Source: Fragilaria crotonensis
Lineage: Eukaryota; Bacillariophyta; Fragilariophyceae; Fragilariales; Fragilariaceae
NCBI GenBank assembly: GCA_022925895.1
Contig: JAKSYS010000351.1
Location: 1-62,696 of the forward strand
Length of the DNA stretch: 62,696 bases
Direction of reading: 5' to 3'
Shown: positions 10,839 to 33,519 of the stretch, piece after piece
Layout of the letters: each line of letters starts with the position of its first letter
Position numbering within the stretch: the stretch's first letter is position 1
Notes under the pieces: generated by a model
Told to the model about the DNA's origin: nothing
The model's input: the letters and a program-made list of their open reading frames with translations, nothing else
Database searches by the model: none
Made by a program: the position numbers and the translations under genes

Positions 10839-11936
10839 TCAGTCTAAATACTCGGAAAGCGTAGCGTCGTCAAATAGTTCCAAATTATCAACATCGCCAT
10901 CATGTTGGAAGCTGGGGAGTTGTCCAGTCATATTGGGATGGCTGACGTATCCTAGGCGCTCGGGGAACGCTTGCGAGTTTGGTGCATCGCCAATCACAAT
11001 CTCTCTGAAGTGACTACCACTGCACATGTTGAGAGCACGAGGAAGGTTGTTGTTTGGTGGTTTAGATAACATTTCATCGCGCATGTCAGACTTAATCGCT
11101 CTTTGCATTCGATTGTCCTCTCGGAACCCTGACAAAGATGATTTAGTGCTGCGACTGGAATGATCCCGCAAAGTTTGTTCCGCCTGTAGTGATGTCTTCA
11201 TGCTTGCAACCAATGTGGTCGATTCGGAATGGTCCGCGCATACTGAGCCTAGTTTTTGGGAATGACGATGCGTGACGGAGATGAGATTGTCGCTCAGACA
11301 CCCTCCCACCAAAGCAACATTAGTAGACTCTCTGCACTCTCGATTTCCTTGTTCAACATTGTTAAGTTGAAATCTACAATCAAGTGCTGAAGTCTGTTCC
11401 GAGTTGACATCCGACGATGCAATATCCCCGGATAGGGAAGGAGGCAATATTGGAGAGTTTATGGAACCAAGAGGTGGTGGATTAGATGGTGATACATTCA
11501 TGCTGTTTTCGGCATCGAGGTTTTTCTGTCGGCGCTGTCGGAGAAAGTGACCGATCTTGTCTCTTCCAACCTTTTGGTCCGCGACATACCAATATTGATA
11601 GATTGGATGCTTCTTGAGAAATCTCACTCCTGCCATGGTGACTTCGTCGTACGCTGCTTTGGAAACACGCATCTTCTCTTTCTTGGAAGCTGCTTGAGAA
11701 TATTGGTCAACGTATTTCAGCATTGCACTCAAAAAGGCTTCATTCCCAGGTTGGTGGAATCTCTCCATGCCAGCTCCGCACAAGACGTCCAAAGCTGTGG
11801 GAGTTGTTGGAACGCTTTGGGAAGTAGTCATTACATTCGAGCTCGCAGTGACCGTTCGCTGTATTTGCGTCCAGGAGAATGTGGTCGTCACCTGTTTTGT
11901 GACCTGCTGCCAGTGCTGGTCCTGCGGAAAAATCAC
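10839..11936 (-). CDS. DUF6824-domain protein
   Basis: A 365-residue single-exon protein. Residues about 49-140 match the DUF6824 domain common in diatoms: DVLCGAGMERFHQPGN, then a helix with SKKEKMRVSKAAYDEV, then RFLKKHP and a final segment VGRDKIGHFLRQRRQ. The domain's function is not established; its basic, helical character has suggested nucleic-acid or regulatory roles. The remainder is Ser/Asn-rich and probably disordered, with an acidic C-terminus (LELFDDATLSEYLD) resembling an activation-type tail. A short Gln/Thr-rich N-terminus precedes the domain. The neighbours give no functional clue. Confidence 0.82.
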   Translation of the reverse strand: MIFPQDQHWQQVTKQVTTTFSWTQIQRTVTASSNVMTTSQSVPTTPTALDVLCGAGMERFHQPGNEAFLSAMLKYVDQYSQAASKKEKMRVSKAAYDEVTMAGVRFLKKHPIYQYWYVADQKVGRDKIGHFLRQRRQKNLDAENSMNVSPSNPPPLGSINSPILPPSLSGDIASSDVNSEQTSALDCRFQLNNVEQGNRECRESTNVALVGGCLSDNLISVTHRHSQKLGSVCADHSESTTLVASMKTSLQAEQTLRDHSSRSTKSSLSGFREDNRMQRAIKSDMRDEMLSKPPNNNLPRALNMCSGSHFREIVIGDAPNSQAFPERLGYVSHPNMTGQLPSFQHDGDVDNLELFDDATLSEYLD

Positions 11937-12859: not shown

Positions 12860-12889
12860 ATCATCTAAGGGGGCACATCTGAGGTTTAA
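12860..12889 (+). repeat. Left terminal inverted repeat
   Basis: Reads ATCATCTAAGGGGGCA, one variable base (C), then ATCTGAGGTTTAA. It matches the reverse complement of 24426-24455 with a single mismatch. Similarity stops sharply on both sides. Confidence 0.85.
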
Positions 12890-13375
12890 TAATAGTTCTG
12901 ATAACATTTTCTCATATGCAGGCAAAACTATTGCTATTTATTTATGCTTTAGTACTGAATACTGGGTGTTTTGATGTTTTCGTTGTTTTTATGGGTTTTC
13001 GGAGTTTTGTGATTGACAGATGCCCTACCCGGATAATTACGTAAAAGTCAGCCGACTTCTGAAAACTTTGTTTTGGTGTACAGATATATGTAGCAAACCT
13101 TCATACAAAAATGCCACTTCATCATTTATGCTAGGTCGTATTTCTGTATCTCTTTTTCTGATAGCCTGCATTCTTTAACACGGAATTGTTTCTTTGCACA
13201 AGGGAAAAAGACGTTGTTATGCTCGTTTGACTGTGCCCTTTCTTCCTCCACAATTTGACGTCCATCCGTTGTTTATTTTGGTAAAAGAATCAAAGTTTTT
13301 TGTCTGCGCCTTATTACTCACAACTCACCAAGCAGCCAATCTAATCACAAACAACAAGCATATCCAATTATCGTG

Positions 13376-16287
13376 ATGTCGGCTTCAAGATATGTGTGTC
13401 ACAATCCTGACTGTGGAAGTCGACGCCAATCCTTTTCCAATGAAAAAGGATACACGATGCATTTTGCACTTTCCCATCCTGTCTGTCGTTCATTGATCAA
13501 TCCTCTTCTGGTGGTGACACAAGACACCAACCAATTGCAGATGACGTGGTGTTTGTCTCCACCATACCTTCATCTCTGATGAGACGTGACGTGATAAACC
13601 CAACAATGCCAACATGCATAATACACAAACGTGGTCGGCATCGATGCTCGACGATGAGGCGACAAACACAACTGACGCGCCTTCTGATGATGACTTTGCC
13701 GCGAATGATGAAGGCTACGCATGGGAAGTAAATGCAACCCTGCCCCTTGTTGTTGATTCCAATGAAGAAGAGCCATGGCTGTACACTGATGATCAAAAGT
13801 GGACGGTTGCGTTGTTAAAATTATTGGACGATATGAATGCTCCAGACTACGCATTTGCTTCTGTGCTTAGATGGGCCAGAGGTGCCAATGCCGCAAGGTA
13901 TTCATTTTATCCTGATGGTGGTTTATCGCGTTCGCGAAGCATTGATCTGTTGTTTTCGGGTATGAAAAATGCAACGCAATTCTTGCCATCGGTTGTAAAC
14001 GTTACCACTCCTCATGGTCCTCCTCGTGATGTTATTGTGTTTGACTTTGTGCCTCAACTCTTGCGGTTGTTGCAGAACCCAAAACTGATGACAGCTGACA
14101 ACTTGTTAATTGACCCCGTTAATCCCTTGCTGCCATACGCATCACCACAAGGTGAACTTGGTGATGCCATCTCTGGTCAAGTGTATCGTGATGCATATAA
14201 ACGGATGATCACCAATCCTGATCGTCAATTCTTTGTGCCAATTATCCAATGGATTGACCGCACATCTGTCACAGGCAATGATCGCTTTTCTTTAAAAGCC
14301 ATACATGTTTACGCCAGCAATTTTTAAAGAACCCTTTCGTCGCAAAATTCAGGCCTGGGGTTATCATGGATTTTTGCCAAAACAAAAGACATCGTCGGCT
14401 CAAAACCAAACCCAAATTCAAGGAAACAATATTCGCAATTACCATGCGGAACTTTATGCTGTATTGCACTCCTTCACTACTTCGGAACCCCGCCTTCGCA
14501 ATGTTATACTTCCTCTTGGTCCCAGAGGTGCAATCTGCGTTGACGTCATTTGTTGCATACTCTTTGTGATACAAGACATGCAAGAAGGCGATGCACTCTG
14601 TGGTCGTTTTGGCTCACACACAACCGGGATACAACGCCATTGTCGTGCGTGCAACGTCACAGCAGCGGAATTGGATAATCCACATGCTACGTGTTCCTTT
14701 TTGTTGCTGCAGACATGGCACGCATCTCCAGCAACCCCGATCAAAAGTGCGTACGCCGTGGTCGCAACATTATCTTAATAATGCGTTTGATTACGTGCCC
14801 ATGGCTGATCCAGTGCGCGGCATTTTGGCGCTACTCCGGTGGAAACTCTCCATGCGTTTCGAAAAGGTTTAATTGAAAGGTCACATTTCTGGTTCTTAAA
14901 ATGTACCAACTCGCCGACGTGCTGCCTTGGACGCGTTGGCCGTTCATTTTCACAGATCGCACCGCCAAACATATCGCAAAGTGTATCCTGCAACCGATTT
15001 CAGCAACGGCATTACCAACCTAACAAAGATATCTGCTGCCGAGCGTGTGGGATTGGTATTCTTGTTCGTCATACTTGCCCAATATGATGAAGGGTGGATC
15101 ATTTTATCCAAAGCGCTGCAACAAAAAGATCGCACCAGTTTACGAAAGGTTATCAATGTGTTTGAAGCACTGTTGTGCTTTGACCAGTGGCTCAATCAAC
15201 CTACCTATTGGACAGCTGAACATCATGACGAATCCGTTTTACAAGTCTCAGATGCGATTACAAAACTGATGGAGATGTGCAAGAAGGATATTCCCTTGTT
15301 TAAAAAAAAGACATGGAAATTTCCAAAATTTCATGAATTGAAGCACATTCTTAACGACATGGAACGTTTCGGTGCCCCATAAATTATTGCGCACAACGCC
15401 CGGAGTCATTGTTGATTCCTGTGGCAAAACAGCCAGGTCGCAGAGCTCAAAAACGACATACAGGTGCTTTGTACGAATTGCAGGCAGCTCAACGTTTATC
15501 GTATTCGTTAATGATTGCTGAGGTTCATTCACGAATCTGGGGGGACGCCAACACGGCGGTAAGTGTCCCGTCTGTGGACGCAGCATCTATTTTTGAATCA
15601 ACTGGCAATGCAACATTTGGAGTTTTGTTTCGGAATACCAATATGATGTTAAACGTTCAGTGGGCAACCAAGACCGATGTGCGGTTGATGCATTTGCCAA
15701 CACCATTGATGGAATTTATGTGGACCACATTTGGCCCACACGTCCGTTTCTGTACCGAATATGTGCGTGACCAATATACGTTTCGTTGCCATCCTGCGTA
15801 TCAATCCGACAATCCGATTAACGATTGGATGAATGTCTTGTTCGAGGTGATGGATACCAAAACCAACACGTACATCAAAACGGCGTTTCCCTGCCGTCTG
15901 GCTGCTGTTGTGATCTGTGCCGTGGATGCTCTCAATGCAGAACCATATCATTTGGTAGTCCAAAGCACTACCGAACGGACCGGTGTTCAATCAGTGCTAT
16001 TGACGGAATGGTGTTGGTCCTCTGAATACCTTGTCATTCTACCATCCAATATTGTGGGCCCATGTTTTGTTATTTCGATTAAGCCCGACATGTCAAAAGT
16101 TCTAGAAGCCTTGCCATTGGACAGTTGGGCTTCCGAGTTCACGAAACCGGTTGATGAATATTCATCCTCTTCTGACGACGACGATGACGAGGAAATGCAT
16201 ACGGATAGTTCGGACGAAGAGAAATCAATTGACTTCGATGACAATGTTGAAGAAGAGGAGGAGGAGGAAGAAGATGGCGATTACTGA
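13376..16287 (+). pseudogene. Transposase with N-terminal zinc-finger-like motif, multiple frame breaks
   Basis: The transposase block of the large element. It opens with a C2H2-like motif (CHNPDCGSRR...GYTMHF...SHPVC). Later segments match the order expected of Plavaka/CACTA-like DDE transposases: DFVPQLL, then PIIQWIDRT with a candidate first catalytic Asp, FVIQDMQEGDALCGR with a candidate second Asp, a CRAC motif, a helical block ending KFHELKHI, and PGRRAQKRHTGALYE near the end. The C-terminus is strongly acidic. Open segments are 13376-13579, 13614-14327, 14305-14778, about 14800-14925, 14927-15382 and 15409-16287. Adjacent segments are joined only by single-base shifts, one in a CCCC run at about 15378. 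Either a decayed gene or indel-affected sequence. Confidence 0.68.
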
Positions 16288-16424
16288 ATAATTATTTATA
16301 TAAATTTATCCTTACATTCTGATAAGGATATCGTCATGCATACTTTCCCCATTGTTTCCTTCAACTGATGGGTTTTGTAACGCTTGCTGCGTTATTCAAT
16401 GAAATCAAGGGCATGATGCATATT

Positions 16425-17206
16425 TTATGCAGGCAGCCTCATTTTGGAACGTCTCAATGGTCTCTTACCTTCATAAAAGAACCGGAAGCCAAGTTTGAAA
16501 GCAACAAATTTACTTTGCACCGTTTCGGAGGAAGTGCAATAATCCAATGCCTCATCGCACAGACGTAGAGCAATTGTCTCATTTGCATCATAGATAAAAT
16601 CCCCATGGATGGTAACTGCATGAGAACAACTGTCGTCAGAGGCTTGCAAGACGCCAAGCACAACCTCATCCTCTTTTAAATCAACTTTCCAATCGAATGA
16701 ACTTGGAAGTTTTTAATCACAATCCAAGTTGGAAGTAAAGTTCTTGCATGCTTAACCACCCTCCGCAATGCATCAACAACTGCGCCTTTCAAGATTTCCT
16801 CGCCGAATGCGTCAATCTTTGATGCATCATCGTGCCATCCCAATGCAAAGAAGGCCGATGCAAGAGACTTACTCACACACAAATCCTTTCCTTCAGATTG
16901 GACGAATTGAATTGCAGGTGCGCCAATCACCTTTAACTCAGGATGCTGGTTCAAGCGAGATTGCTTAAAATCACCAACGGGGATGTCAACCCAGCCTCGT
17001 TTAGATTGTTTCAATTCATCAGTGAAGCAATCGCCAAAGGTTTTGCGGACGTAATCTTCTTCCAGTGTTGGCGTTTTACCATCCGATGTCTTTCCAAGCC
17101 ATTTGCCTTCAACTGTAATTGTCTTTCGTGGAGGAGGGTCTTTCAAAGCCTTCAAATTCTTCAACTGAGAATCCCACCAGTCATCATCCTCATCTGTGGC
17201 ATCCAA
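16425..17206 (-). pseudogene. Papain-fold-like cysteine peptidase segment of the transposon polyprotein
   Basis: The last part of the minus-strand block, read from 17206 to 16676 and, after a one-base shift near 16675-16690, to 16425. An acidic start is followed by KDLCVSKSLASAFFALGW, with a Cys at the start of a helix as in papain- and OTU-like folds. Then comes SHAVTIHGDFIYDAN, a His-hydrophobic-strand-Asp/Asn pattern typical of their second and third active-site positions. I infer a cysteine peptidase or inactive relative, different from the Ulp1-like segment upstream. No family name can be assigned. Its stop faces the transposase stop at 16287, so the two genes are convergent. Confidence 0.5.
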
Positions 17207-17226
17207 ACCTTTGAGGACATCCTTAT

Positions 17227-18659
17227 TCAGAGAAGAACGCAGAGCCTCTGTTCTGATATAACCGCTTTCGCGGGTTTATCAGTAATGCCTTTCTCTGATC
17301 TTCCTTTGCGTTTTTCCTGAGAGGATTTGCGTCGTTCCATTTCAATTTCTTCAATTTCCTTCTCAATTCTTTTATCCAATTCAGCAGTGTCAACAATTCT
17401 GCGCTTTTTTTCTGGGCAATATCGAATTCGGATGATCTTTTTCTTACCAATAAAGACTTCCACATCTCGCGGAACCTGAGTCCAGTTGGATTCCTCCTGG
17501 CGCATATTTATGATTTGATCAAACATGGGTTGGAATTCAGATTTGACCCATTCTTCCTCCACATCGATTTCTTCTTCTTGCCGAATGTAATCATAATGCG
17601 ATGCTTTCTGTGGAGTCTTTTGCTTTTGGTTGTTGGTTTGAGGTGGAAAGACCGGAACCTCCTCTGTCCAAACCAATTTCGCTCGGAATGAATTCGTTGC
17701 TTTATCAAACCTCACACTCTGTACCAATGTTTTCTGAGTGCACTTAAATTCGTTGGCAAAGAATTTTCGGAATTTTGCTCGCTCGTCTTGCAAGGCTTTG
17801 ATCATCATGTCAATGTCACGAATGGTCTCCTTGGAAATACCATTAATATTTTTCTTCCTTGCCCAGCGATCAAGCTCAGCTTGATGCTGAGCCTTTGTAT
17901 GCCATTTCCAAGCCTTGAAGCTTTGCTCGATGTACTCTTCAATTTCCGCTTCATAGTCCGATCGTTTCATAATGGTCGGTGTAGGTAGTCCAGTAACTCC
18001 GTATTCTGTAGCAAGCTTCTCACACAGTGCCTTTGATTGCGTACAGAACTTTGGTGTTGGATCTGGGAAAGGAATAATAGCCTTTTCCAGTTTCTTTGCA
18101 TCGAGGGATCTTTGATTCGAATCTTCTTAAGAAACGCCTCCGCCATATCTTCAACTGCATCCGTTTTGCGCTTCAAAGGAACAACGAGCGGTTTTGGTTC
18201 GAATGTTTTCGTATCGGATGCCAAGGTTTGACTTTGTGTGATGTTTGCGCTTGCCTCTGTCTGCACGTCAGCATTTAATACAGCCCTTTCCATTGATGCA
18301 CCAGCTGCGCTTTCGGGAACATCCATATTCGCACTTCCTTTTTCTGGCGTTAGCAACAAAACATTGGCTCCTTCAATACGATTGTTGTCGTTTGTTGCCA
18401 CATGGTCAGATTGCGTCAAAACATTGGCTTCGTCGGAGTGATTAATGTTCACTCTTGCCGCTTCGTCGTTTGTTGGCTTTGATGCTTCGGTCTGCTCATG
18501 AATTGCAGATAACGCAGTCGAATCAGATTGGATTGTTGTTCCGTCTTGAGCCGTGCCTTTGGCAAAAGCTTTCGTTGTGTCTGAGCACGGACCTTTTTCG
18601 GCGATGGCGAAGGTGCTGCCTTTGCTTCCAACAAAATGTCTTGGTTTCCAACTGGCCAT
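17227..18659 (-). pseudogene. Charged helical linker region of the transposon polyprotein
   Basis: Two open segments (18659-17967 and 17970-17227) overlap by four bases. The first is Thr/Ser/Ala/Asp-rich and probably disordered. The second is rich in Lys, Glu and Arg with long helical stretches, including an EKEIEEIEMERR run, and is likely coiled coil. No catalytic motif was seen. The segments lie head to tail with the Ulp1-like block upstream and the papain-like block downstream. I read the whole as one original gene broken by frame shifts. Confidence 0.45.
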
Positions 18660-19759
18660 TGCGAGATTAGAGGCAAGTTGTTTGTGTAAACATCAGGGAC
18701 AAGATAATCAGCAAAAACTTTCTTGGGCTCAACATCGAATTGAAGCTTTGCCAAACGGTCGAATAAGACAAACCACTGCTCTCGCTCGGGAAGAAAAGAT
18801 TCCCTCTTGATTTTGGGCAGCGATACCCAAGGTGGTTGCAAATTCTTATATGGCATGTCGCAATACATTTCGTTCTTCAATGCACACTTTTTCAACTCCA
18901 ATGCTGTCGCCGAGAATTGGTCATCGAATGTAGCATCATCAACAATCAGATCACGCAGGACCATTGCTAAAGTTGCTATGACACCAAAGGCACAATTGTA
19001 AGTGTCATCGTTGGATTGCTTCGGAAGAATGTCGGAATTCAAAGGCAAATGAAGTGCAGGAAAAGTAGGTGTGCCAAGCATATTTCCATCCAATGCTTCA
19101 CCAAAAGGTGACAGCCACTCCAACTTGCCTTCTGATGGGTCCGAATGTTTTTTTTCGTGTGCATCGTAACTCGAACATAAATTCAAGAACCACAAGATGC
19201 CTTGGGAATTCGGAACATTGCGTCGGCCATTTGTGTCCATACTGCAGTATCGAAAAAAACACGCACGCAATCCATCTTTATTCCTTTTTTCGACTTCAGA
19301 CGTGTTGTACGCAGCGTTAAAGACAAAAGTGGCACTCCAATGGCTTTCATTTTTGTTGCATGGAAAGACAATCATCCGACAATCTAAGATCCACGGGTTT
19401 GGGTGAATCACATGCTGCACCAGGTGGTTTCTCAACTTGCAATAATCGCTTGCAAGTTGAGTCACAGGAGCTTTGAATCGGTCCAGGATGGCTTGCGCAA
19501 GCTTAACAGGATCAAGATCTTGTTCCTTGCCGAGTTTGACCATCTTTAAGGCACGCTGATATTCGACGAACTTAGCAAAAGCAATTGCGATCGAATCACA
19601 GTAACAGCATGGCATGACAAAACATAAATCTTGATACCGTCCATCGCACAAAAGAATCGCCATCATCAAGTCAAGCTCTCCACTTTGCATCCATTTCACT
19701 CCATGGGCTTCTGTATGCAACAGCCGACGCTCAATACGCACTTCTCCTTTAACAAACAT
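18449..19759 (-). CDS. Ulp1/C48-like cysteine protease segment of the transposon
   Basis: A 436-codon open segment with the arrangement of an Ulp1 (peptidase C48) fold: ESHWSATF (candidate catalytic His140, followed by Trp as in Ulp1), CSMDTNG (Asp175), and Q248 followed by YNCAFG (Cys256). Glutamine eight residues before the Cys fits the oxyanion-hole position. Ulp1-type proteases process SUMO in host cells. In Plavaka, KDZ and related transposons they are common passengers whose targets are uncertain. The frame upstream of the first Met continues the GNAT-containing segment after a one-base shift near 19765, so this is probably an internal part of a larger protein. Confidence 0.65.
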   Translation of the reverse strand: MFVKGEVRIERRLLHTEAHGVKWMQSGELDLMMAILLCDGRYQDLCFVMPCCYCDSIAIAFAKFVEYQRALKMVKLGKEQDLDPVKLAQAILDRFKAPVTQLASDYCKLRNHLVQHVIHPNPWILDCRMIVFPCNKNESHWSATFVFNAAYNTSEVEKRNKDGLRACFFRYCSMDTNGRRNVPNSQGILWFLNLCSSYDAHEKKHSDPSEGKLEWLSPFGEALDGNMLGTPTFPALHLPLNSDILPKQSNDDTYNCAFGVIATLAMVLRDLIVDDATFDDQFSATALELKKCALKNEMYCDMPYKNLQPPWVSLPKIKRESFLPEREQWFVLFDRLAKLQFDVEPKKVFADYLVPDVYTNNLPLISQWPVGNQDILLEAKAAPSPSPKKVRAQTQRKLLPKARLKTEQQSNLIRLRYLQFMSRPKHQSQQTTKRQE

Positions 19760-19764
19760 GGTCG

Positions 19765-21342
19765 TCAGAGGAGGAACACTTGCATACGGAGGTGGAACAA
19801 TTGTCGCATAGTAGAGTCAGAATAGTGCAGACGTATTCCGCAAACTATGGGTGGTGGAAATTCACACCAAAGTTTCCAAGCATTGTTTGTGTCAGATGCG
19901 TCCTGTGAAACAGCTTGTGCTTCATCAGCAGGGGCAAGTTGGAAATGACGCAGGCATCCAGAACGCAAATGCATGAGTTGATAAACAACGGATTTGGGGT
20001 CATCCTTTTCATATGCATGGAAGATTGAAATTTTGAATTCCGCAGATTTGAATGCTGACAAATGATCCCTCACATGTCTCGGAAGCATTGAAAATCCATC
20101 ATCAAAATGATCGTTTATTTGCTTAAACCCAAGCATGGTGTAGAAATGAAACGCAGATGGTTTGCTCGTAGGATTGCAAAAAGATTTCCACTGTCTTGCA
20201 GGCAATGTCATTTGCATAACAATATTTGATCATTGCAATAATCAAAAATAATCCAAACCCTTGCCTGCGCCAGCCATTAATTTGCGTTGGGTGCGTTGCA
20301 TCATGCTTGGCAACAAGTAGCCAGGAAATGAATGCCGCAACATCATGTTTTCCTTTCGCGAAGGAAACGTTCGACTAAAGGTGACAGCTGCAACAACCTT
20401 CATTCCTTGATTTTTTTCTTCCCACATCGGTTTCCACGTATGGATGGGTCCTGCTTTCTTCTTCGTTACAATCATGATAGTAATCTGATTTTCCAATGCT
20501 ACCCGAATTGACGATGTTGTTGTTGACTTTGGAGCAAAGCCACTGACATAAAACTTAAGTGCCAACTCCTTGAACTTGGCAATGCGTGGCTGCAAATGTT
20601 TGTTTTTCACCAGTTTCCAATCGGGAGCAGATGGGTTTATGACAACAAGGCGAAAATACCAAGTGTGATCACCATCGCCGGGTTTGTCAATAAGCGATGC
20701 AAATCGGAGATCTTTGTACCAATGCCGGCAGCGGTAAAGATCAATCTCTCCATATCCGCCAGTTTTTGGTTGCAAATCAAATGCAGATCTCACTGCATGC
20801 CTGGCATTGCGAGCGTCGTTATCCTTCATCAGAAATTCGTCTACACCAGTGAATCCATAAACGGATTTGAGTTGATGGGGAATAATAAAAGCAACCTCGT
20901 CGTCTCGAGAGGCAAGGACATCGATATCTGGCGGAACAAGAATGGTCGCATCAACGTCAATGGGATCGTTCAACGTTGTTGGCTTTAATGGTGCTCTGGT
21001 GGATTTTGTTGCTTTGGAATCAGTAGCATCGACGTCATGAATTGTTGGTTGGTTTTCAACCCCAGAGGAAAGCATTGCGTGATCCGCCTGGTGTGTTTCA
21101 AGATTTGTGAGTGAGTCGGTCACGTTTGTTACAGGATCAAGTTTCTCAATAGCAAGAAACATGCTTTCCATTTTCGCCATCCCTATCTGGGATTTTGGGA
21201 TTTTGCTATCTGCACTTTCGTCTTTGTCCATGTCATGCGTTACATCAGTGGTGGCAATGGTCTGAATTAATGCCTCTGAGGGATCTTCATTATCCTCTGT
21301 ATTGCTGTTGCCTTCTTTGGCGGTTTCACGAGCAGCTTCCAT
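19765..21342 (-). pseudogene. GNAT-type acetyltransferase segment at the start of the transposon polyprotein
   Basis: Probable start at the ATG 21342-21340 (MEAARETAKEG). The first about 180 residues are Asp/Thr-rich and disordered-looking, followed by a mixed region. From about 20400 downward, strands leading to VVAAVTF are followed in another frame by WRRQGFGLFLI, matching the acetyl-CoA pyrophosphate-binding motif A (Q/R-x-x-G-x-G/A) of GNAT enzymes. After a second shift comes KPSAFHFYTMLGF, the usual C-terminal GNAT motif. Breaks lie near 20300-20340 and 20150-20200. The substrate is unknown. Joining the downstream Ulp1-like segment needs one more one-base shift. Confidence 0.58.
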
Positions 21343-22665
21343 GGCTCGGTTGATGATGATGCTGTGATAATCTCCAGCCAATGATCTTTGATGAAAACAG
21401 AAACCTCGAATGAATCTTGGTGACTGTTTTGTGTCAAGAAATACACGTAACCACAAGCACACGCTGCTTTGCTAGTGAATCACGACGTGGAGTCAGCAAT
21501 ACTCAATCAAGAGCAAGATTCTCGCAGGTGACTAGCCCCCACAGCTAATGTGCAATTGGTGTATGAATCCTTGCTTCAAAAATACTGGTGGGATCGTTAC
21601 AGCTGCCAGCAACAAAGAAAATGAAACAATATCAACAAAATGGTTCGTTGATCCTGCAGGAGAGAGCAAACAAGAAAGTCAGGTGAGAGCACATAGCAGT
21701 TGTTACACCAGGGTGGCGAGTCGTGTCGTTACTGCTTTGCCGTATGTGGGCTACGTAATGTGTATGTAACAGTAGTCCTACACCGTATGACAGTACAACA
21801 ATACAAAATTTTGCCGCACCACTGCACTGGTCACGTAGGAATGGTATGGCTGTACTAGTGTACAGTGCTTTACGACACTGTACATAAATACAGTGCAGTG
21901 CTGACAGCAAACGATCTTCATTCAACACATGTCACTTCTTTTGCAAAAACACAATGGTTTGACCTCTGATGCAAACAAAATCGCCACATGACATCTGTCT
22001 GATGGCAATGCTTACAATGGGTGCTCGTTTTTTTTAAAGGAGCAAAGTTTGAGAAAGGAATGATGAAGGAAGTGATGAGAGTGAATGGGGACAACAACAG
22101 TTCACTTTGTGCAAATCTCACGAGTTGAAAAAAATCGGGGAAACGTAATGTTGGAATAACGGCTTTTCAGAATATGGGTCGCGAATGTGCCTACGCACAC
22201 GGTAGTACGGGTACTGAAAATTCGTGCACTGTATCAAGTACTCCAATGCATAGCACTGCAGGTACAAGTACTGTATCCACTATTATGCATACAACTCCTA
22301 ATACAAACTATACATGCTACTAGTAATACATATTTTGTTGCATTGCAGTGTAAACATATATCATACACTTTTGCTTTTCTACTTCTAGTCTAGTAATAAT
22401 AATGTGTGTCCCGTACGCACTCGGAGAGTTGATAATGTGCTCTACTTAAATCATCAATGATACGATCTTACCCAAACTTGATTAAGTATAATTCATTTGA
22501 ATTAACTATTATTTTCAAAACAACTTTCGCGCATATTAATGCAACAAATATTTCATTCGAATGCATGTCATTTCCTTCCATCATGTCATAATCCTTAGTT
22601 GTTGCAACAATGAGCAAAAATAAAAACTTAACTTTCAAGGCCTTGGCCTTGACATTGACGACGAC
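21343..22665. other. Non-coding interior of the large transposon
   Basis: Between the divergent polyprotein and third gene of the element, so probably a bidirectional promoter region. A 73-codon open stretch at 21548-21769 is Cys-rich at its start but has no recognised domain. Homopolymer T runs and AT-rich stretches dominate 22020-22640. No TIR-like subrepeats were found. Confidence 0.35.
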
Positions 22666-24050
22666 TTGAATCGCATTACTAAATGTGATCATAAGGCCAA
22701 CGCGACTAACATGCGTGCTCCGTCAAGACAGTATCATGCATTGCCTGCCAATGATCAAATACAAGCTTTGGTCGAACCGGATACGATGCATTTGGTGCTG
22801 CCAAGTGCATGTATTTCAAACATGGAACTTCACCATGAAACCACCGACATGACCGGTAAAATGACGCCAGAAGGCAGGCGCATTTTGGTACGTAACTGCG
22901 TTAAAACGTATTGTTCCGGCGTCTCAAGTTTTTTAAAAAGGACTTACATGGGATGTACGATCAACGCGCTACTTCTGTTTGTGGCCTTGTGATAAAGAGT
23001 TGCAACCTCCCATAAAGACGCAACATTAGAATGGTGGGCTACAATGCGTAAGGTTGTCATTGCAACGCATACGGATCATCGCAATAATGTCATTAAAACA
23101 ATGCGATTGCGTTTCCGAGGTGCGTGTTGGTAACAGTATAAGCCACCGTGTCGTTTGTAAAACTTACATTATATGGCAGATGGCGTTAATGGTCGCATCC
23201 CAAACTTTAAACGCAATAGTGGCAGCGATGACGACATTCAGACATTATTGGCAATGCGCTCCAACATTGTTAATTATGTTCATATAATCGACATCAATGC
23301 GCCTTGTGTTGTCAAATCAAGCATTTGGAACCGCGACACTATCATGACACAGTACTGTGGTGACAACGCTGCCAATTTTCAGGAATACATTTTGTCGATT
23401 AGTGACGAAGCGTTTTTACTGCTTGTTTTAATCAATTACAGTGCTACGTGGATGGCGGAAATTGAAGAAGAACATCGCAAGGTACGTTAAATTCTGAATG
23501 TATGTGTGTTATGATTTCCGTATTACGCAAAGACTCACGACAGTTGCCTCGTAAACAAAGATATACACTAATCAACAGGGACACAGTTTGGACACGGCAC
23601 CCCCGTGCGCTTGTGGTACGTTTGTAATTATCAGTGTGGAAATCACCAATGCGGTGTTAATAAGATTGCCACTAACAACTGAGTTTTGATTGGTCTTAGG
23701 CGCCGAAGTACACGTTCTCGAGAAAAACAAAACGTTGCAGTGTAGCACGCAAGCCGGTTGCCGAAACATCCGGTATTGGATGGTCGGAGGCTGGTTTGGA
23801 AAGGTACAATGAATTGTATGATTTGGTGGTTGAAGACCGTGTTTCACGCGGAGGCGTTTTCAACAATGAGTTGTTGAATGTTTTTGTGGAACGCCGACGT
23901 GATCGAAAGAGTGCCAAGCAAGTGTGTGAACCAGACGCCAAAAAGCGCAGAATTGTCCCCAAGGATGACATGGGACTCTACGATACATTGTTTGAAAATG
24001 TGATTGCTACGAATGTGTCACGTGAGTTGCACCCAAGTATGCAGCTTTAA
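22666..24050 (+). pseudogene. Third transposon gene: spliced protein of unknown function
   Basis: Coding-like segments: 22666-22887 and its uncertain continuation to about 23010, about 23010-23118, about 23174-23481, and 23700-24050. The last intron is clear (23482-23699, donor GTACGT, acceptor CTTAG, phase 0). A shorter one probably joins about 23119-23173 (donor GTGCGT, acceptor ATGGCAG). Recognisable traits are EWWATMRKVV, the segment SISDEAFLLLVLINY, and after the last intron KYTFSRKT followed by GWSEAGLERYNELYDLV, then a Lys/Arg-rich C-terminal stretch. I recall similar GW...RYN-type proteins beside DNA transposons of algae, but no function is known. The middle part needs a one-base shift near 23015. 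Confidence 0.5.
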
Positions 24051-24425
24051 TATCATACACTGTGAATGAAATATAATGATTAATTAGTTTGATTATTTAT
24101 ATCGTTACAAAAAACTTCAGATACCTTATTACAACATTCAATTACATGAAGTAAATTACCATGGATAAAGACATACATGACATCAGATTTCTTTATACCA
24201 GTGTCAGATAAGATGACATGTTACATGTCACCATCGAATGTCTTTCGAAACGGATTCCTTAATAATTTTAATCCGAAATCAGAATGTTGAACTTCCGAAA
24301 TCAGAATAAAAATGACAGAATACGAACTCCGACCTCGTTCATCGAACAATATGTCGGTCTGTTTTTTAACGGATGTATCTGTTTTTATCTTCTTATATCC
24401 CAAATGCAAAAACTCCGATATAGGG

Positions 24426-24455
24426 TTAAACCTCAGATTTGCCCCCTTAGATGAT
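24426..24455 (-). repeat. Right terminal inverted repeat
   Basis: On the minus strand it reads ATCATCTAAGGGGGCA, one variable base (A), then ATCTGAGGTTTAA, i.e. 29 of 30 positions identical to the left repeat. The 370 bp between it and the last gene (24051-24425) are AT-rich and have no supported gene. Confidence 0.85.
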
Positions 24456-27204: not shown

Positions 27205-27490
27205 AGTGGTTGTTTTGCCCAAATTTATAGGCTAACACCCTAACGCTTCTTCAAGCCAACTCCTTCCCAAGGACTACCAGAGCTTTACCAAAGCTCCCAC
27301 CGATCTCCGATCTAACGAAGTACTCGACAGTACTCGTCGCTCTTCGCTGCAGCTCAGTCAACACCGTTCGACTGTCCACCCAGTCTCCGACTACTCCACT
27401 ACCGTCGATCTAGCGAAGTACGTTCCCCAACGTCAACACTCCGTGTTCATTGCTCCCAGCACCCTAAGACACGCTCCGCGTTAATCCAAG

Positions 27491-29383
27491 ATGGCGTCTC
27501 CAACTCCTACTGGTGACCCCGTCACCACCACGTCCCCAACACCTGTCAGTGACCCCGTCACCTCCAACAGACCCGTAAAGCCCATCATGGGCAACGTCGT
27601 CTCGCTCTCCAAGGACGACTCGTCCGCCTGGACCGGAGGGAAGCCGCTCGCCGGTTGGATCGGTCTCGATCCAAGCGCCAGCGACGAACATACTTCCCCG
27701 AATCAACTCCGACCCGTCCACGCTGGTGCTTCGCAAAAAGGTTACAACTACCGCCGCACTGGCCTGCCTTGGGATCATCTCACCGACTGCGGGATGGATA
27801 GCATCGCTTACCTCCCTGACCCCGAAAACGAACTGCTGACGACGAACGTCGTCAAAAGCCACTCTCGTTATACGATCCAAACCGCCAAGACTCTTAGCGC
27901 CAAACAACTCATGCTGTACGACAAGAGTAATGACCGCGCCGCCGTCAAGTTTGTGCTCTCGTCGCTTGTGCCTGCTCTCATGAGCAAAATCAAGGAGAAG
28001 ACCGAGGACTCCGATTCGTTCCACATTGTTTGGTTGCAACTCTTCAAGACCATTCAATCAACGTCCATCGAATGTTTTGAAGACTTGAAGGCTGCGATTA
28101 AGGCTCGCCATCCAACGCAGTACACCGGAGAGAATCTTGAGCTTCTCGCATCTGATTTCCGCAAGGACGCTCGTGAGTTGACAACAGCTGGTCAATACGA
28201 CCACAACTTGACACTTACGATGTTGAAGACATTCCTGCTTGCCGGTGGATCAGGCAACGAAGACTTCCGCTTTTGCTATGTGCAACGAAACAGAAGCTCG
28301 ACCAGGCTCTGCTTGATATCGGGTACAAGGAGAAGTCAGCAGCGCAAGCACACATGGTGAGCGAAAAATTGACTTACCAAGATGTTTGTCGACAAGCTGA
28401 AGACGCATATCGCCTCCAGTACGACAGGAAGGAATGGCCACCAGCCAGTCATGCCACCTTTTGGGAATGTTGCTCTGCCAGAAGGTTCTGCAATCACGCG
28501 AGCTGAAGTTCTAAATCTGATCCAATCTCAGACGCCTAGCCAGGACACGCCAAAGAAGGGCAATTGTCACAACTGTGGCAAACCAGGTCATTGGTCCAAC
28601 AAGTGTCCGGAAAAGAATAAAAACGGTCGCAAGAATGTCTCTGGAAACGGGACTCCAAACAACGCAACTGGAGCCCACAAAACTCAATCTTGGCGCACGA
28701 TACCTCCACCTCCTGGAACTGCGACGTCCAAAAAGGTCAAGGACAAGGCATTCAATTGGTGTGAGAAATACAGTCGTTGGACAACGACGCACACGACCGC
28801 TACCGACACAGGACAACGTCGCAACGACGCATCTGCTCCCGCGCCATCAGCTCAAGCTAATCTCTCAGCGTTTTCCATCGCTGACCCTTCGGGGTGGATG
28901 TTTGACTTCGACGACCATGCGAGAAGACTTCAGTCTACGACAAGGAAATCAATCTACGCGTTCTTATTCTCAAAAACAACGATTCTATTGGTTTATTCAG
29001 TGATGTTCTGTCTCGTCGTGCCAAAGTTCGCAAACTTGGCAACCCAAGTGCTACGATCAACTCCATGGATGTCGCTCTCGACGTGGGTCGCCGACTCACT
29101 TTGTCAAGTGCTCCGCGAGCAACCAACGTTGCTCCTTGCCCCTGCTCTTTGGCTCGCACTCCTGGCTGCCCCCTTTTGGAAGCCAGAAGCTTGCCAACAA
29201 GAAACGAACACAACCACAAGCACTTCGTTCACTCGCAAGCAACGCAGACGTTTCGCGAAGCTCTTGAAGACGTCACTCGCCAAGCCCCAACACGAAATGC
29301 GACGCCGCAAGGCTGTGGCTCCTCTTCCCTATCGCCTTCGCAAACGACGTCATCAAAACGCATCCAACGCACCGTCCCTTTGA
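27491..29383 (+). pseudogene. Copia Gag-like region with CCHC zinc knuckle
   Basis: Begins with MASPTPTGDP at 27491. A helical capsid-like region runs to about residue 260. The nucleocapsid-type knuckle CHNCGKPGHWSNKC is at about 28568-28610. Two compensating one-base shifts occur: one base missing in a TTTT run near 28272 and one extra near 28440. The knuckle is therefore in the starting frame but the segment between is not. Downstream of the knuckle several frames are open and the connection to the protease region is unclear. Confidence 0.75.
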
Positions 29384-29428
29384 ATGCAGACAAGCCTTTG
29401 AGACCTCGACGAACTGAAGACACGAACG

Positions 29429-31336
29429 TTGTTACTCCAGCGTCAGACGCAACGCCTTCGCACGCCTCGCTCTCCATATGCAACGAATGCGCTCAACAAG
29501 GGAGGAACTGGAACTTTGGATCGCCGCACGCACACTCAACGTAAGAAGCCAGCACGCCGACCGAAATACCATCCTGTTCCCGCCGACGGAGCCCCTGATG
29601 CGTTTGTCCCTGCACCATGGACGACACAGCAACACAACACTGCCCACAAGATCATCTCCCACGTCAACCTCGCTTGCACTGCCACGCTCCGAATGGCATT
29701 GCAAGCGCCAGCACGCATGCGAAACGCTCTCGGAAGTGCGACGAACAGTGCTCCCATCATATGGGACTCTGGCGCGAGCATCTCCAGTTCGCCCGATCCT
29801 GAAGACTTTCAAGGCACGATGCGAAGCCCCGGCACTATCACCCAACTAAAGGGAATAGCCCGCGGACTTCAAATCAAGGGTCAAGGCGAAGTTACTTGGG
29901 CAGTTCACGACACGAACGGCAACCTGCGAATGATCAAGGTTCCCGCTTTCTACGTACCCGGCATCAAAGTTTGTCTCCTCTCGACCACGAGTCTCTTGCA
30001 AACCTATCAAGGCGAGACGATTAAAGTCGAATCGAATCGACTCACCTTGAGCGGCGTTCCTGGCGACTCAAGTCGAGGAGCGGTAATGGTGCTCGTGAAT
30101 CCGAAGAACAACCTGCCAACGTCCGACGCCTTCAATGGTCAGGATCCTTTCAAGGCCGCTGACGCACTCGTCGCAATGATCACCGAGGTTCACGAGACGA
30201 ATCACAACGTCAGCGAAGCCGAAAAGGAACTCATGCGATGGCATTATCGCCTCGGACACATTGGATTCAAGAAGATCCAGTTCTTGTTAAGAACCGGAGT
30301 CTTGAGTCAAACAGAAGCAAGTCGCCGACTCCATTCTGCAGCCTGCAAGCTGATGAACCTTACAAAGTGTGCAGCCTGCCAGTATGGCAAGCAGCATCGA
30401 CGTCCTATCCCTGGTTCGACGCCGTCAACTATCATCCGCGACCGAACGAACATCCTCAAGGCCGACAACGTTATTCCCGGACATCGAGTTTCCATCAACC
30501 ACTTCATTTGCAGCACGCGAGGACGGCTTCTCACTTCCGCCGGCAAGACCAAAAATGACGAGATGTACACGGGAGGATGTATCTTTGTGGACCACGCCTC
30601 CGGTTTCGTTCACGTCGAGCTTCAAGTAAATCTCAACACGCACGAGACTCTCAAAGCAAAGGAGAAGTTTAAACTTACCTGTCGTCAATACGGAGTCGTG
30701 CCGCAGGAATACCTGGCGGATAACTCCAAGATTTTCACCTCCGCCGAGTTCACCAAGAACCTGTCGACGTTTGCTCAAATCATGAGGTTTGCAGGCATTG
30801 GTGCCCATCACCACAATGGCATTGCCGAGAGGAACATTCGAACAATCATGGCGATCGCGCGCACGATGATGCTTCATGCAGCAATTCATTGGCCATCGAT
30901 CGCGGACGCAACGCTTTGGCCGTTGGCCGTCAACCATGCAGTCTTTCTGGTCAACCACGTCCCCGATCCGAGAACTGGTTTATGTCCCTCTGACCTGTTT
31001 ACCAAAACGAGATGGGAACAACGCAAGCTCAACAATCTCCACGTTTGGGGATGCCCTGTCTTTGTGTTCGACAAGATGATCTCCGATGGCAAGAAGCTGC
31101 CTTGCTGGACTCCGCGGTCAACTCGAACGATCAACATGGGCTTCTCGGCGAAGCATGCCATCACGGTTCCAATCGTTCTCAACCCCCAAACTGGTTATAC
31201 TACGCCGCAATTCCACGTCGTCTTCGACGATTGGTTTGCGACTGCTCCTGCCTCCGTCGACGACCTTCCGAACTTTAACGCCGACAGTTGGAAGCGAGCG
31301 AATGTTTCGCGACTCGACCTACCAATACATTCTTGA
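29429..31336 (+). CDS. Copia protease-integrase region
   Basis: A 635-codon open segment. The aspartic protease active site is IIWDSGAS (DSG) at about 29755-29780. A GAG-pre-integrase segment with WHYRLGH and CAACQYGK supplies the HHCC zinc-binding residues. The integrase catalytic residues are D in IFVDHASGF, D in LADNSKIF and E in GIAERNIR, with the typical spacing. The C-terminal segment LHVWGCPVFVFD follows. The frame breaks near 31298 by one extra base, just before the region joining integrase and reverse transcriptase. Confidence 0.9.
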   Translation: MLLQRQTQRLRTPRSPYATNALNKGGTGTLDRRTHTQRKKPARRPKYHPVPADGAPDAFVPAPWTTQQHNTAHKIISHVNLACTATLRMALQAPARMRNALGSATNSAPIIWDSGASISSSPDPEDFQGTMRSPGTITQLKGIARGLQIKGQGEVTWAVHDTNGNLRMIKVPAFYVPGIKVCLLSTTSLLQTYQGETIKVESNRLTLSGVPGDSSRGAVMVLVNPKNNLPTSDAFNGQDPFKAADALVAMITEVHETNHNVSEAEKELMRWHYRLGHIGFKKIQFLLRTGVLSQTEASRRLHSAACKLMNLTKCAACQYGKQHRRPIPGSTPSTIIRDRTNILKADNVIPGHRVSINHFICSTRGRLLTSAGKTKNDEMYTGGCIFVDHASGFVHVELQVNLNTHETLKAKEKFKLTCRQYGVVPQEYLADNSKIFTSAEFTKNLSTFAQIMRFAGIGAHHHNGIAERNIRTIMAIARTMMLHAAIHWPSIADATLWPLAVNHAVFLVNHVPDPRTGLCPSDLFTKTRWEQRKLNNLHVWGCPVFVFDKMISDGKKLPCWTPRSTRTINMGFSAKHAITVPIVLNPQTGYTTPQFHVVFDDWFATAPASVDDLPNFNADSWKRANVSRLDLPIHS

Positions 31337-33519
31337 CGACGAGGACCAAGAGCGGTTGATTGTTGAGACCGAGAATTTTGAGAAGGAACAAGATGTACTC
31401 TCGCAACAACAACGCATCGCGACCGCCATCGACGACGCAACTCCACCGTCAGCGCTACCCGTCGAACCTCCTCCGACAAGAACCCCTGTCAACGCAACAC
31501 AACGACAGCTCCCACCAGTCAACGAGACGACGACGCAACCTCCGGTTCCCTCGACACCATTGTTGATTCCAAGGGAGAGTCCACCTCCATCAACTCCAAC
31601 GGTGTCGTCTCCGCCTCATTTGATTCAGGATCCTCAGCCCCAGACACCGACGCAACTGTTCCAGTCTCCACTTCGTCCTGCACCTCATGACATCCCACCA
31701 TCTCCTGCTTCAAACGAAACGAACGATGAGACTGAAACTGTCATGAAGCAGGTACCTGACAAACAGCAAAGGCACTCACCTCGTCGCTCCACTCGCACTC
31801 GCAAAGCTCCCGATCGTCTCGGATACGACGGCCAACAAGGGAGAGGTTACTTGTTTACAATGGATGACATCATCTTCGATTGGCTCCTCACCGAAGCCAT
31901 TGAAGACAGCAGCGCCATGTCACAAGCAAACAAGGCAAGCGTGAGCGACCCCGACACTTTGAGCTTCGAAGAAGCCATGTCGGACGTCGAGAACATCCAA
32001 AACTGGATGAGAGCTGCAGAAGCCGAAATCAAGTCGTTGGAGAAAAATGGGACTTGGAAAGAAGTGCCAACTGCTGATGCGAAGTCACGAATCCTGCCAG
32101 GTACTTGGGTCTTTCGGCGTAAACGCACGCCTGACGGTGCCATAAGCAAGTACAAGGCATGCTACTGTGTACGAGGCGACTTGCAGGAAACTGAGCAAGA
32201 AACGTTTGCCCCAGTCGTGGCTTGGAGTACGGTACGGTTGTTTCTGGTACTGTCACTTACATTGGCTTGGCAAACTTGCACTATCAATTTCAGCAGTGCA
32301 TTTGTACAGGCCCCACTCACTGATCCAGTATGGATTCACTTGCCTTGAGGCTTTCATTCCGAATGTGGGTCTTCTACGTGCCTGCAACTCTTGAAAAGTC
32401 TCTACGGTTTGAGTGTCGCACCGCGACTCTGGTATGAACATCTGTCCGATGCACTACGCGATGAAGGGTTCAAGAGCTGTGCAAATGACCCTTGCCTTCT
32501 TTGCAAGGATACTATTATGGTTGTCATCTACGTTGACGATTTGGGCATCGCTTTTTCAACTCAACGCGACTTCTTTGACGAATTATTTGCAAATCTTGAT
32601 GCCAAAGGTTTCAGCTTCACGAAGGAAGGAACCTTCACTGACTTCTTGGGAATCAACTTCGTGAAGGATCCCAAGAATGGCACTCTGACGCTCACACAGA
32701 AAGGCCCAATTCAGAAGATTCAAGAGGCGACAGGCATGAAGATGAGCAACAGCAATTGGACTCCCGCTGGACAAGCCGCTTTGGGAATCGACCCCGACGG
32801 TCCTCCGATGCGAGAGTCTTGGAGCTATCGCTCCGTGGTTGGGATGCTCCTCTACCTTTCGACGAATACTCGCCCAGATATCGCGTTTGCAGTCAGCCAG
32901 GTTGCACGATTCTCGCACAATCCGAAGAAGAGTCACGCTTCCGCAATCAAGACAATTGTTCGTTACCTCCAGAGGACGTACGATAAGGGTATGATCGTCA
33001 AGCCAACCGGCGAACTGCTATGTGGACGCTGACTTCGCAGGATTGCATCGTCGCGACCCGGACTCCTCGCCAAGCTCCGCAAAGTCGAGGACAGGATACA
33101 TCATAACTCTCGGAGGGTGCCCAATCCTTTGGAAATTGCATCTTCAATCCGAAATATCTTTGTCGACGCTCGAGGCTGAGTACTCCGCCCTCAGCTCTGC
33201 CATGCGAACGCTCCTTCCTTTGCGCGCCATGCTCCTTGAACTCATTGACGGCTTGCAACTTCCTGATACTCTTACATCTACCGTTTAGTGTCGTGTGTTC
33301 GAAGACAACAACGGCGCACTTCTTTTGGCGACCAACCAACAAATTACCAATCGGACGAAGTACTTCCAAGTCAAATGGCATTTCTTTTGGTCTCACGTTC
33401 GCGACGGCACCATCGCAATCATCAAGGTTGATACTCAGGAACAATGGGCCGACATGCTCACCAAAGGCCTGAATCGCGAAAGCTTCGAACGAGTTCGCCG
33501 ACTTGTTCAAGGATGGTGA
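31298..33519 (+). pseudogene. Copia reverse transcriptase and RNase H, with two nonsense codons and a frameshift
   Basis: After a Pro/Thr-rich linker come the RT motifs: GTWKEVP, TWVFRRKRTPDG, LKSLYGLSVAPRLWYEHL, and the catalytic YVDD in VVIYVDDLGIAF at about 32520-32555. RNase H follows with YVDADFAG, SLSTLEAEYSAL and VFEDNNGALLLA, ending with KWHFFWSHV and a Trp codon before the stop at 33519. Breaks: in-frame TGA at 32346-32348 where relatives have Arg (CGA to TGA would be a CpG transition), one extra base near 33010, and in-frame TAG at 33286-33288. Confidence 0.9.

Follow-up and report, generated by a model that had tools for sequence, protein, structure and literature searches.

A Plavaka-type transposon lineage of the diatom Fragilaria crotonensis, probably with a conserved antisense gene for a putative acetyltransferase and cysteine-peptidase-like protein

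Does a stretch of diatom DNA bounded by inverted repeats represent a genuine mobile element, and if so, what might a predicted acetyltransferase and two cysteine-peptidase-like domains be doing inside it? The question is raised by positions 12860 to 24455 of a 62,696-nucleotide stretch of Fragilaria crotonensis DNA (GenBank assembly GCA_022925895.1, contig JAKSYS010000351.1, here C282), the whole of which is referred to as the window. An earlier note, made from the letters of the window alone, had described this locus as a transposon in which a transposase is accompanied by GNAT acetyltransferase-like, Ulp1-like and papain-like segments. Comparison with the genome (62.1 Mb, 881 contigs) shows that the transposon family is genuine, with a window element about 11.6 kb long. 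In keeping with a diatom host, this genome gives 19 matches to silicon transporters, a family that marks diatoms, 18 of them over the cut-off (best E 4e-193); among 14 control genomes a single one gave a match, below the cut-off. It probably belongs to a Plavaka-type diatom lineage in which an antisense gene with GNAT, Ulp1-like and papain-like domains (the passenger) and a third gene have been conserved together with the transposase, the passenger possibly serving in counter-silencing.

The ends of the element are as follows, in coordinates of the window:
12860 to 12861, no strand: left target-site duplication, 2 bp (AT); the outermost two bases differ among copies and are AT on both sides here
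12862 to 12889, plus strand: left terminal inverted repeat, 28 bp, starting CATCTAAGGGGGCA (arm comparison, genome copies)
24426 to 24453, minus strand: right terminal inverted repeat, 28 bp (arm comparison, genome copies)
24454 to 24455, no strand: right target-site duplication, 2 bp (AT) (copy-end comparison)

Positions 12860-12889 and 24426-24455, the two arms, are complementary at 29 of 30 bases. Their local alignment score is 55, whereas random 400-bp pairs drawn from the window (up to 200, pairs less than 1 kb apart being excluded) score no higher than 28. When the genome was searched for the repeat with up to 3 mismatches allowed, 15 matches were obtained, compared with none for the reversed repeat used as a control; 12 of the 15 form six facing pairs (C282, C686, C869, C214, C449 and C728) and single ends occur on C252, C522 and C78. 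Chance inverted repeats are ruled out by the arm score relative to random pairs and by the genome copies with facing ends. Read on one strand, the outermost two bases vary from one copy to another, and in four of the six the pair at the left end is the same as that at the right end (AT, AA, GA, CA); the element therefore spans 12862 to 24453, has a repeat of 28 bp and makes 2-bp target duplications. The 30-bp repeats with one mismatch reported in the earlier note are thus real as arms, with their outer two bases reassigned to the target-site duplication; the repeat proper is identical at 27 of 28 positions, with termini 5'-CATCT..AGATG-3'.

Five two-ended copies exist beyond the window, and four of these align with it end to end (C282, C686, C728, C449 and C214; 95.3-99.7% identity, gaps not counted), C686 and C728 differing by as little as 0.34%. 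The full-length copies have identical end bases and the same three genes as the window. The search for repeats and alignment of copies that the earlier note had recommended therefore supplied common ends, a common gene set and 2-bp duplications, and among the outcomes that it had named as speaking against its proposal, neither copies ending elsewhere, nor transposase-only copies, nor profiles rejecting the GNAT domain were encountered, the C869 copy being internally deleted (7.3 kb). It is hardly credible that a transposase-only element and host genes came by accident to lie between unrelated inverted repeats: the interruptions in the window copy fit such an accident, and nothing further does, while full-length copies with identical ends elsewhere rule out a transposase-only element beside host genes, and divergent elements that have ends and duplications of their own contain the same gene set. 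Numerous small indels distinguish the window copy from the others, and its genes are split over several frames; one-base indels are present in all five full-length copies, so some of them may be assembly errors. Unless its breaks are such errors, the copy in the window has probably decayed and would be mobile only with the help of other copies. A 94-bp extra stretch in the C214 copy, first suspected to be an intron, turned out to be a local tandem duplication, and the same copy contains a nested 763-bp insertion with inverted ends, probably a non-autonomous transposon.

Three gene blocks lie between the ends, as had been predicted: a forward transposase (~13.2-16.3 kb), a reverse passenger gene (~16.4-21.5 kb) and a forward third gene (22.6-24.05 kb). 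Their parts are:
13259 to 16287, plus strand: gene 1, Plavaka-type transposase, in several broken frames in the window copy (Plavaka profile match)
16428 to 17251, minus strand: gene 2, C-terminal papain-like domain (Gln..Cys, His, Asp/Asn), frame-broken (residue motif)
17230 to 18575, minus strand: gene 2, linker between the Ulp1-like and papain-like domains (genome search)
18539 to 19813, minus strand: gene 2, segment with Ulp1/C48-like domain (His-Trp, Gln..Asp..Cys) (motif, alignment, profile)
19792 to 21471, minus strand: gene 2, N-terminal part with GNAT domain, frame-broken (motif, Pfam, PDB profile)
22621 to 24050, plus strand: gene 3, conserved protein, in three pieces (genome search, relatives)

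Is this gene set peculiar to one family, or is it conserved more widely? Genome searches, in which the best candidates were scored (33 of 225 for the GNAT-Ulp1 part) and whose counts are lower bounds, gave at least 51 matches to the GNAT-Ulp1 part and at least 107 to the papain-like part, down to ~30% identity. Ten related loci were fetched, all picked from the GNAT-Ulp1 matches, so that only transposase linkage is informative among them; transposase-like frames lie opposite the passenger in all ten, and the last (papain-like) domain was matched in nine, C874 being without a match. By eye they fall into about four similarity groups (C872/C140; C106/C131/C874; C454/C2/C87/C664; C347). Matches were then clustered (80 of 80 for the transposase, 40 of 51 for the GNAT-Ulp1 part, 73 of 107 for the papain-like part and 84 of 107 for the third gene), those left out being mostly fragments of places already listed and weak third-gene matches, which makes counts of single genes rough. 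The GNAT-Ulp1 part occurs in 25 clusters, seven of them window-family copies, and is accompanied by the papain-like part in 22, the third gene in 23 and a transposase at Pfam level in 15. The gene order of the window is compatible with 24 of the 25; in C347 the third gene flanks the transposase from the opposite side. The same placement is seen at C361:123000-132999, where GNAT, Ulp1-like and papain-like segments are present and whose passenger was absent from the GNAT-Ulp1 matches of the genome search.

Two related elements could be delimited, using the word CATCTAA and homology:
C106, 62807-75012, 12206 bp: related element with ends CATCTAAGGGCC/CATCTAAAAAGC and TA on both sides
C131, 207770-219443, 11674 bp: related element with ends CATCTAAGGGCC/CATCTAAAAAGC and TA on both sides

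Their ends enclose all three genes, and their mutual homology stops at the TA. A second Plavaka-type transposase begins at ~75230 of C106, just past the C106 element, the two elements apparently lying side by side.

The transposase is the part that best places the element. A 1038-residue stop-to-stop frame in the C728 copy scores 36.0 bits against the Plavaka profile PF18759 (cut-off 26.3), and the window piece at 14296-14778 matches the same profile at E 0.0044 (16.7 bits, under the cut-off). Genome-wide the profile gave 80 matches at E <=0.001, and none in 14 control genomes; weak matches to Poxvirus A6 and other unrelated sub-threshold Pfam families were regarded as chance. WIDRTxVTGN, QDMQEGDxLCG and a later conserved Glu are common to the aligned relatives. 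CMCT transposases are described as having C(2)C and H(3-4)H between the second Asp and the last Glu (accessible text of PMC12730594). By eye, the conserved FHxxHRQ of the transposase reads as H(2)H followed by a conserved Glu, and CxxC is present in C728, C140, C872 and C87, its first Cys being replaced by Ser in C131 and C106. According to the same accessible text, CMCT termini are mostly CA..TG with target duplications of 2-5 bp, those of Plavaka being 2-3 bp (PMC12730594); the diatom element falls within this description, with CATCT..AGATG and 2-bp duplications in four of six copies and both relatives. PlavakaB termini are given there as CATCA..TGATG; the fifth base here is T, and the element is therefore not filed as PlavakaB. 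The earlier note had named Plavaka, KDZ and related elements as known carriers of Ulp1-like proteases; placement with Plavaka holds by the transposase, whereas the 8-bp target duplications of KDZ (Zisupton) do not occur, those found being 2 bp only. The element is thus best placed with Plavaka, apart from both KDZ and PlavakaB. Many Plavaka-profile clusters in which the passenger was not detected match only profile positions ~39-168, and are perhaps a second Plavaka clade.

What the passenger encodes can be read most fully by combining copies. In C449 the GNAT and Ulp1-like domains share one 1414-residue frame, which overlaps a 339-residue frame containing the last domain; in C686, C2 and C131 this last domain is in one frame with the preceding linker. 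Since frames overlap across copies, the passenger pieces tile into one gene, from which we infer a single-gene fusion of the three domains. The acetyl-CoA motif of GNAT enzymes is R/Q-x-x-G-x-G/A, and RRxGxG and FYxxxGF are found on the minus strand around 20159-20359; WRRxGxG and FYxxxGF are common to five families, with RRxGxG invariant. Pfam Acetyltransf_10 matches four of the five families (best E 1.4e-5), the window-family member scoring 17.6 bits, below the cut-off of 23.6, and in the PDB a GNAT profile matches NAA50 chains over 56 positions (E 3.4e-5), the weaker matches including unrelated farnesyltransferases at E >=0.1. A GNAT acetyltransferase domain in the predicted passenger protein is thus well supported, as the note had proposed. 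The catalytic residues of Ulp1/C48 peptidases are His-Asp-Gln-Cys; the His, Gln and Cys do not vary among the five aligned families, and the Gln, Asp and Cys within a PxQ..DGxNCG-type motif, like the His-Trp, show little or no variation. In a hhalign comparison with four diatom C48 proteins (four of eight fetched loci, the rest being partial or near-duplicate), the Ulp1-like part gave E 0.0033 across 34 columns at a probability of just 9.7, compared with E 0.13-0.69 in five control pairs. An AlphaFold2 model of the window's Ulp1-like stretch, made without an alignment, had a predicted local distance difference test score of 35.7 and was not used. Papain-like peptidases use Gln-Cys-His-Asn/Asp, and Gln83, Cys90, His176, Asp187 and Asn189 of the last domain are invariant in five families, the Cys, His and Asp/Asn also being kept in three ~30%-identical relatives, two of them near-identical to each other. 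The two peptidase-like segments of the earlier note are therefore present as conserved residue patterns, the Ulp1/C48-like assignment being weak in profile comparisons and the papain-like one a motif-based call that profiles neither confirm nor reject.

Several observations weigh against the reading of a Plavaka-type lineage with a co-conserved three-domain passenger and a third gene. At the ends, C214 and C869 are without matching 2-bp duplications, and no empty site was found in a search made with the sequence flanking the window element on the left, which is single copy in the genome. The two ends of the C106 and C131 elements share only about seven bases, roughly the word CATCTAA, and a de novo inverted-repeat search in them did not rise above shuffled controls (31 vs 31, 23 vs 33). 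Regarding the gene set, 41 clusters have the Plavaka profile with none of the other three genes detected, and the third gene alone occurs in 34 clusters and the papain-like part alone in 18, all of these being rough counts. Within the passenger, no copy examined has one uninterrupted frame through all three domains. Pfam C48 gives weak matches to two of the five families (best E 0.0059) and does not match the window-family member, and no PDB chain was matched by the Ulp1-like profile; the papain-like part has no Pfam match in any of the five families, and its PDB profile search returned a lone nanobody at E 1. Moreover, the Asp expected after the Ulp1-like His is not conserved, several families having another residue there, and in the window family the Gln and the Cys lie two residues further apart. 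These last two features are what would be expected if one or both peptidase-like domains were pseudoenzymes that bind SUMO or ubiquitin-like proteins, leaving the GNAT domain alone catalytic; such an arrangement is rather improbable given the invariant Ulp1-like His/Gln/Cys and papain-like Cys/His/Asp/Asn of the five families and the persistence of the papain-like residues in the distant relatives.

Substitution patterns favour constraint on the transposase and the passenger. Ratios of nonsynonymous to synonymous substitution (dN/dS) range overall from 0.07 to 0.30: 0.087 for the transposase (one pair, a second being saturated), 0.14-0.30 for the GNAT-Ulp1 part (six pairs) and 0.067-0.08 for the papain-like part (three pairs, with frames that include the linker). 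Synonymous differences exceed 0.6 per site in most pairs, and these rough ratios point to purifying selection on all three parts. Identities of the transposase and the papain-like part are correlated (r = 0.87, 21 non-independent pairs of 7 loci). Searches for relatives in viral or prokaryotic genome contigs gave pattern matches only, none of which was confirmed by tblastn. The third gene is kept in related elements, its first piece giving at least 107 matches in the genome search, and none of the pieces scanned matches a Pfam family above the curated cut-off; as a guess, it might encode an accessory DNA-binding or end-binding factor.

How might the products act? By analogy with the family, the DDE transposase would cut at CATCT..AGATG and insert with a 2-bp stagger, in a cut-and-paste manner. 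The passenger could act in trans, altering protein acetylation and stripping SUMO or ubiquitin-like modifiers from chromatin or repair factors, and so would modify and cleave host targets as the earlier note supposed. Its most likely role would be to ease expression or integration of the element, that is, counter-silencing. The passenger may instead serve transposition itself, its peptidase-like domains processing or de-modifying the transposase and its GNAT domain acetylating it, for example at the N-terminus, with no anti-silencing role. The position of the passenger opposite the transposase and its strong constraint would suit this, as would the best GNAT matches, which are NAA50 N-terminal acetyltransferases, though over 56 positions only; Ulp1 and OTU domains have also been suggested to act in transposition or in its repair (accessible part of PMC2836005). 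Plavaka-profile loci without a detected passenger argue the other way, and the data do not distinguish between passenger targets, no search having been made for a conserved cleavage site; a role confined to transposition is considered unlikely.

Counter-silencing, the favoured reading, has a proposed parallel in fungal Plavaka elements (PlavakaA/B, CMCT; accessible text of PMC12730594), which resemble the diatom element in the Plavaka-profile transposase and 2-bp duplications, in termini that begin CATC in PlavakaB, and in the carriage by some of a passenger enzyme gene. They differ in that their passenger is a TET/JBP dioxygenase rather than a GNAT/Ulp1-like/papain-like protein, and PlavakaB in ending CATCA..TGATG rather than CATCT..AGATG. 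The TET enzymes of fungal transposons have been proposed to keep elements expressed or to aid integration (PMC12730594, same text), and a role along similar lines has been put forward for Ulp1/OTU domains (PMC2836005). A bolder and only tentative proposal is that a stramenopile Plavaka lineage fused an acetyltransferase and two cysteine peptidases into one dedicated effector that both rewrites and erases host protein modifications at the element; as part of that proposal, the effector would be a protein-level counterpart of the fungal TET dioxygenases.

Single parts of the element have known parallels, each described here from the accessible portions of the sources. The CACTA-ULP elements of grapevine and rice (PMC2528002) also have an Ulp1-like region, in five grapevine families, and Plavaka is placed in the broader clade that includes the CACTA type; they differ in a Tnp2-type transposase, and those portions do not mention a GNAT or second peptidase-like domain. 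Ginger1 and Mutator-like elements (PMC2836005) are likewise DNA transposons with an Ulp1-family cysteine peptidase, but Ginger1 has Ulp1 or OTU, not both, at the transposase C-terminus, whereas in the diatom element two cysteine-peptidase-like domains and GNAT are encoded by an antisense gene apart from the transposase. Oomycete CryptonS/CryptonF (PMC3212892) are also stramenopile transposons with a C48-related protein; they are tyrosine recombinase elements, and GNAT is not mentioned in the portion seen. Plavaka-flanked giant repeats of Amoebidium (PMC11244446) combine a Plavaka transposase with extra genes in a protist, but are tandem gene clusters of up to 50 kb in which many genes are tyrosine recombinases. 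EnSpm-Plavaka elements have been reported in a green alga in the literature on Plavaka. Among the titles listed that name Plavaka, none concerns diatoms, and the one diatom-transposon paper found mentions CACTA only in its references, as far as its accessible text goes. A Plavaka element with GNAT and two peptidase-like domains was not found in the literature searched, Repbase and subscription papers being outside its scope, and within that literature the combination appears to be new, while its single parts are of known kinds.

A DUF6824 gene, of a family with at least 150 matches genome-wide, lies next to the element at 11535-11789 of the window; on the element's other side, frames with a CCHC zinc knuckle, GAG-pre-integrase and RVT_2 at 27485-32345 are probably a Copia-type retrotransposon.

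Transposons that carry protein-modifying enzymes reveal which host pathways limit transposons. A conserved acetyltransferase with two peptidase-like domains, the last of them constrained about as strongly as the transposase, would suggest that diatoms control transposons through acetylation and SUMO/ubiquitin-type marks, and the several recent, nearly identical copies in the genome allow control by such marks to be tested.

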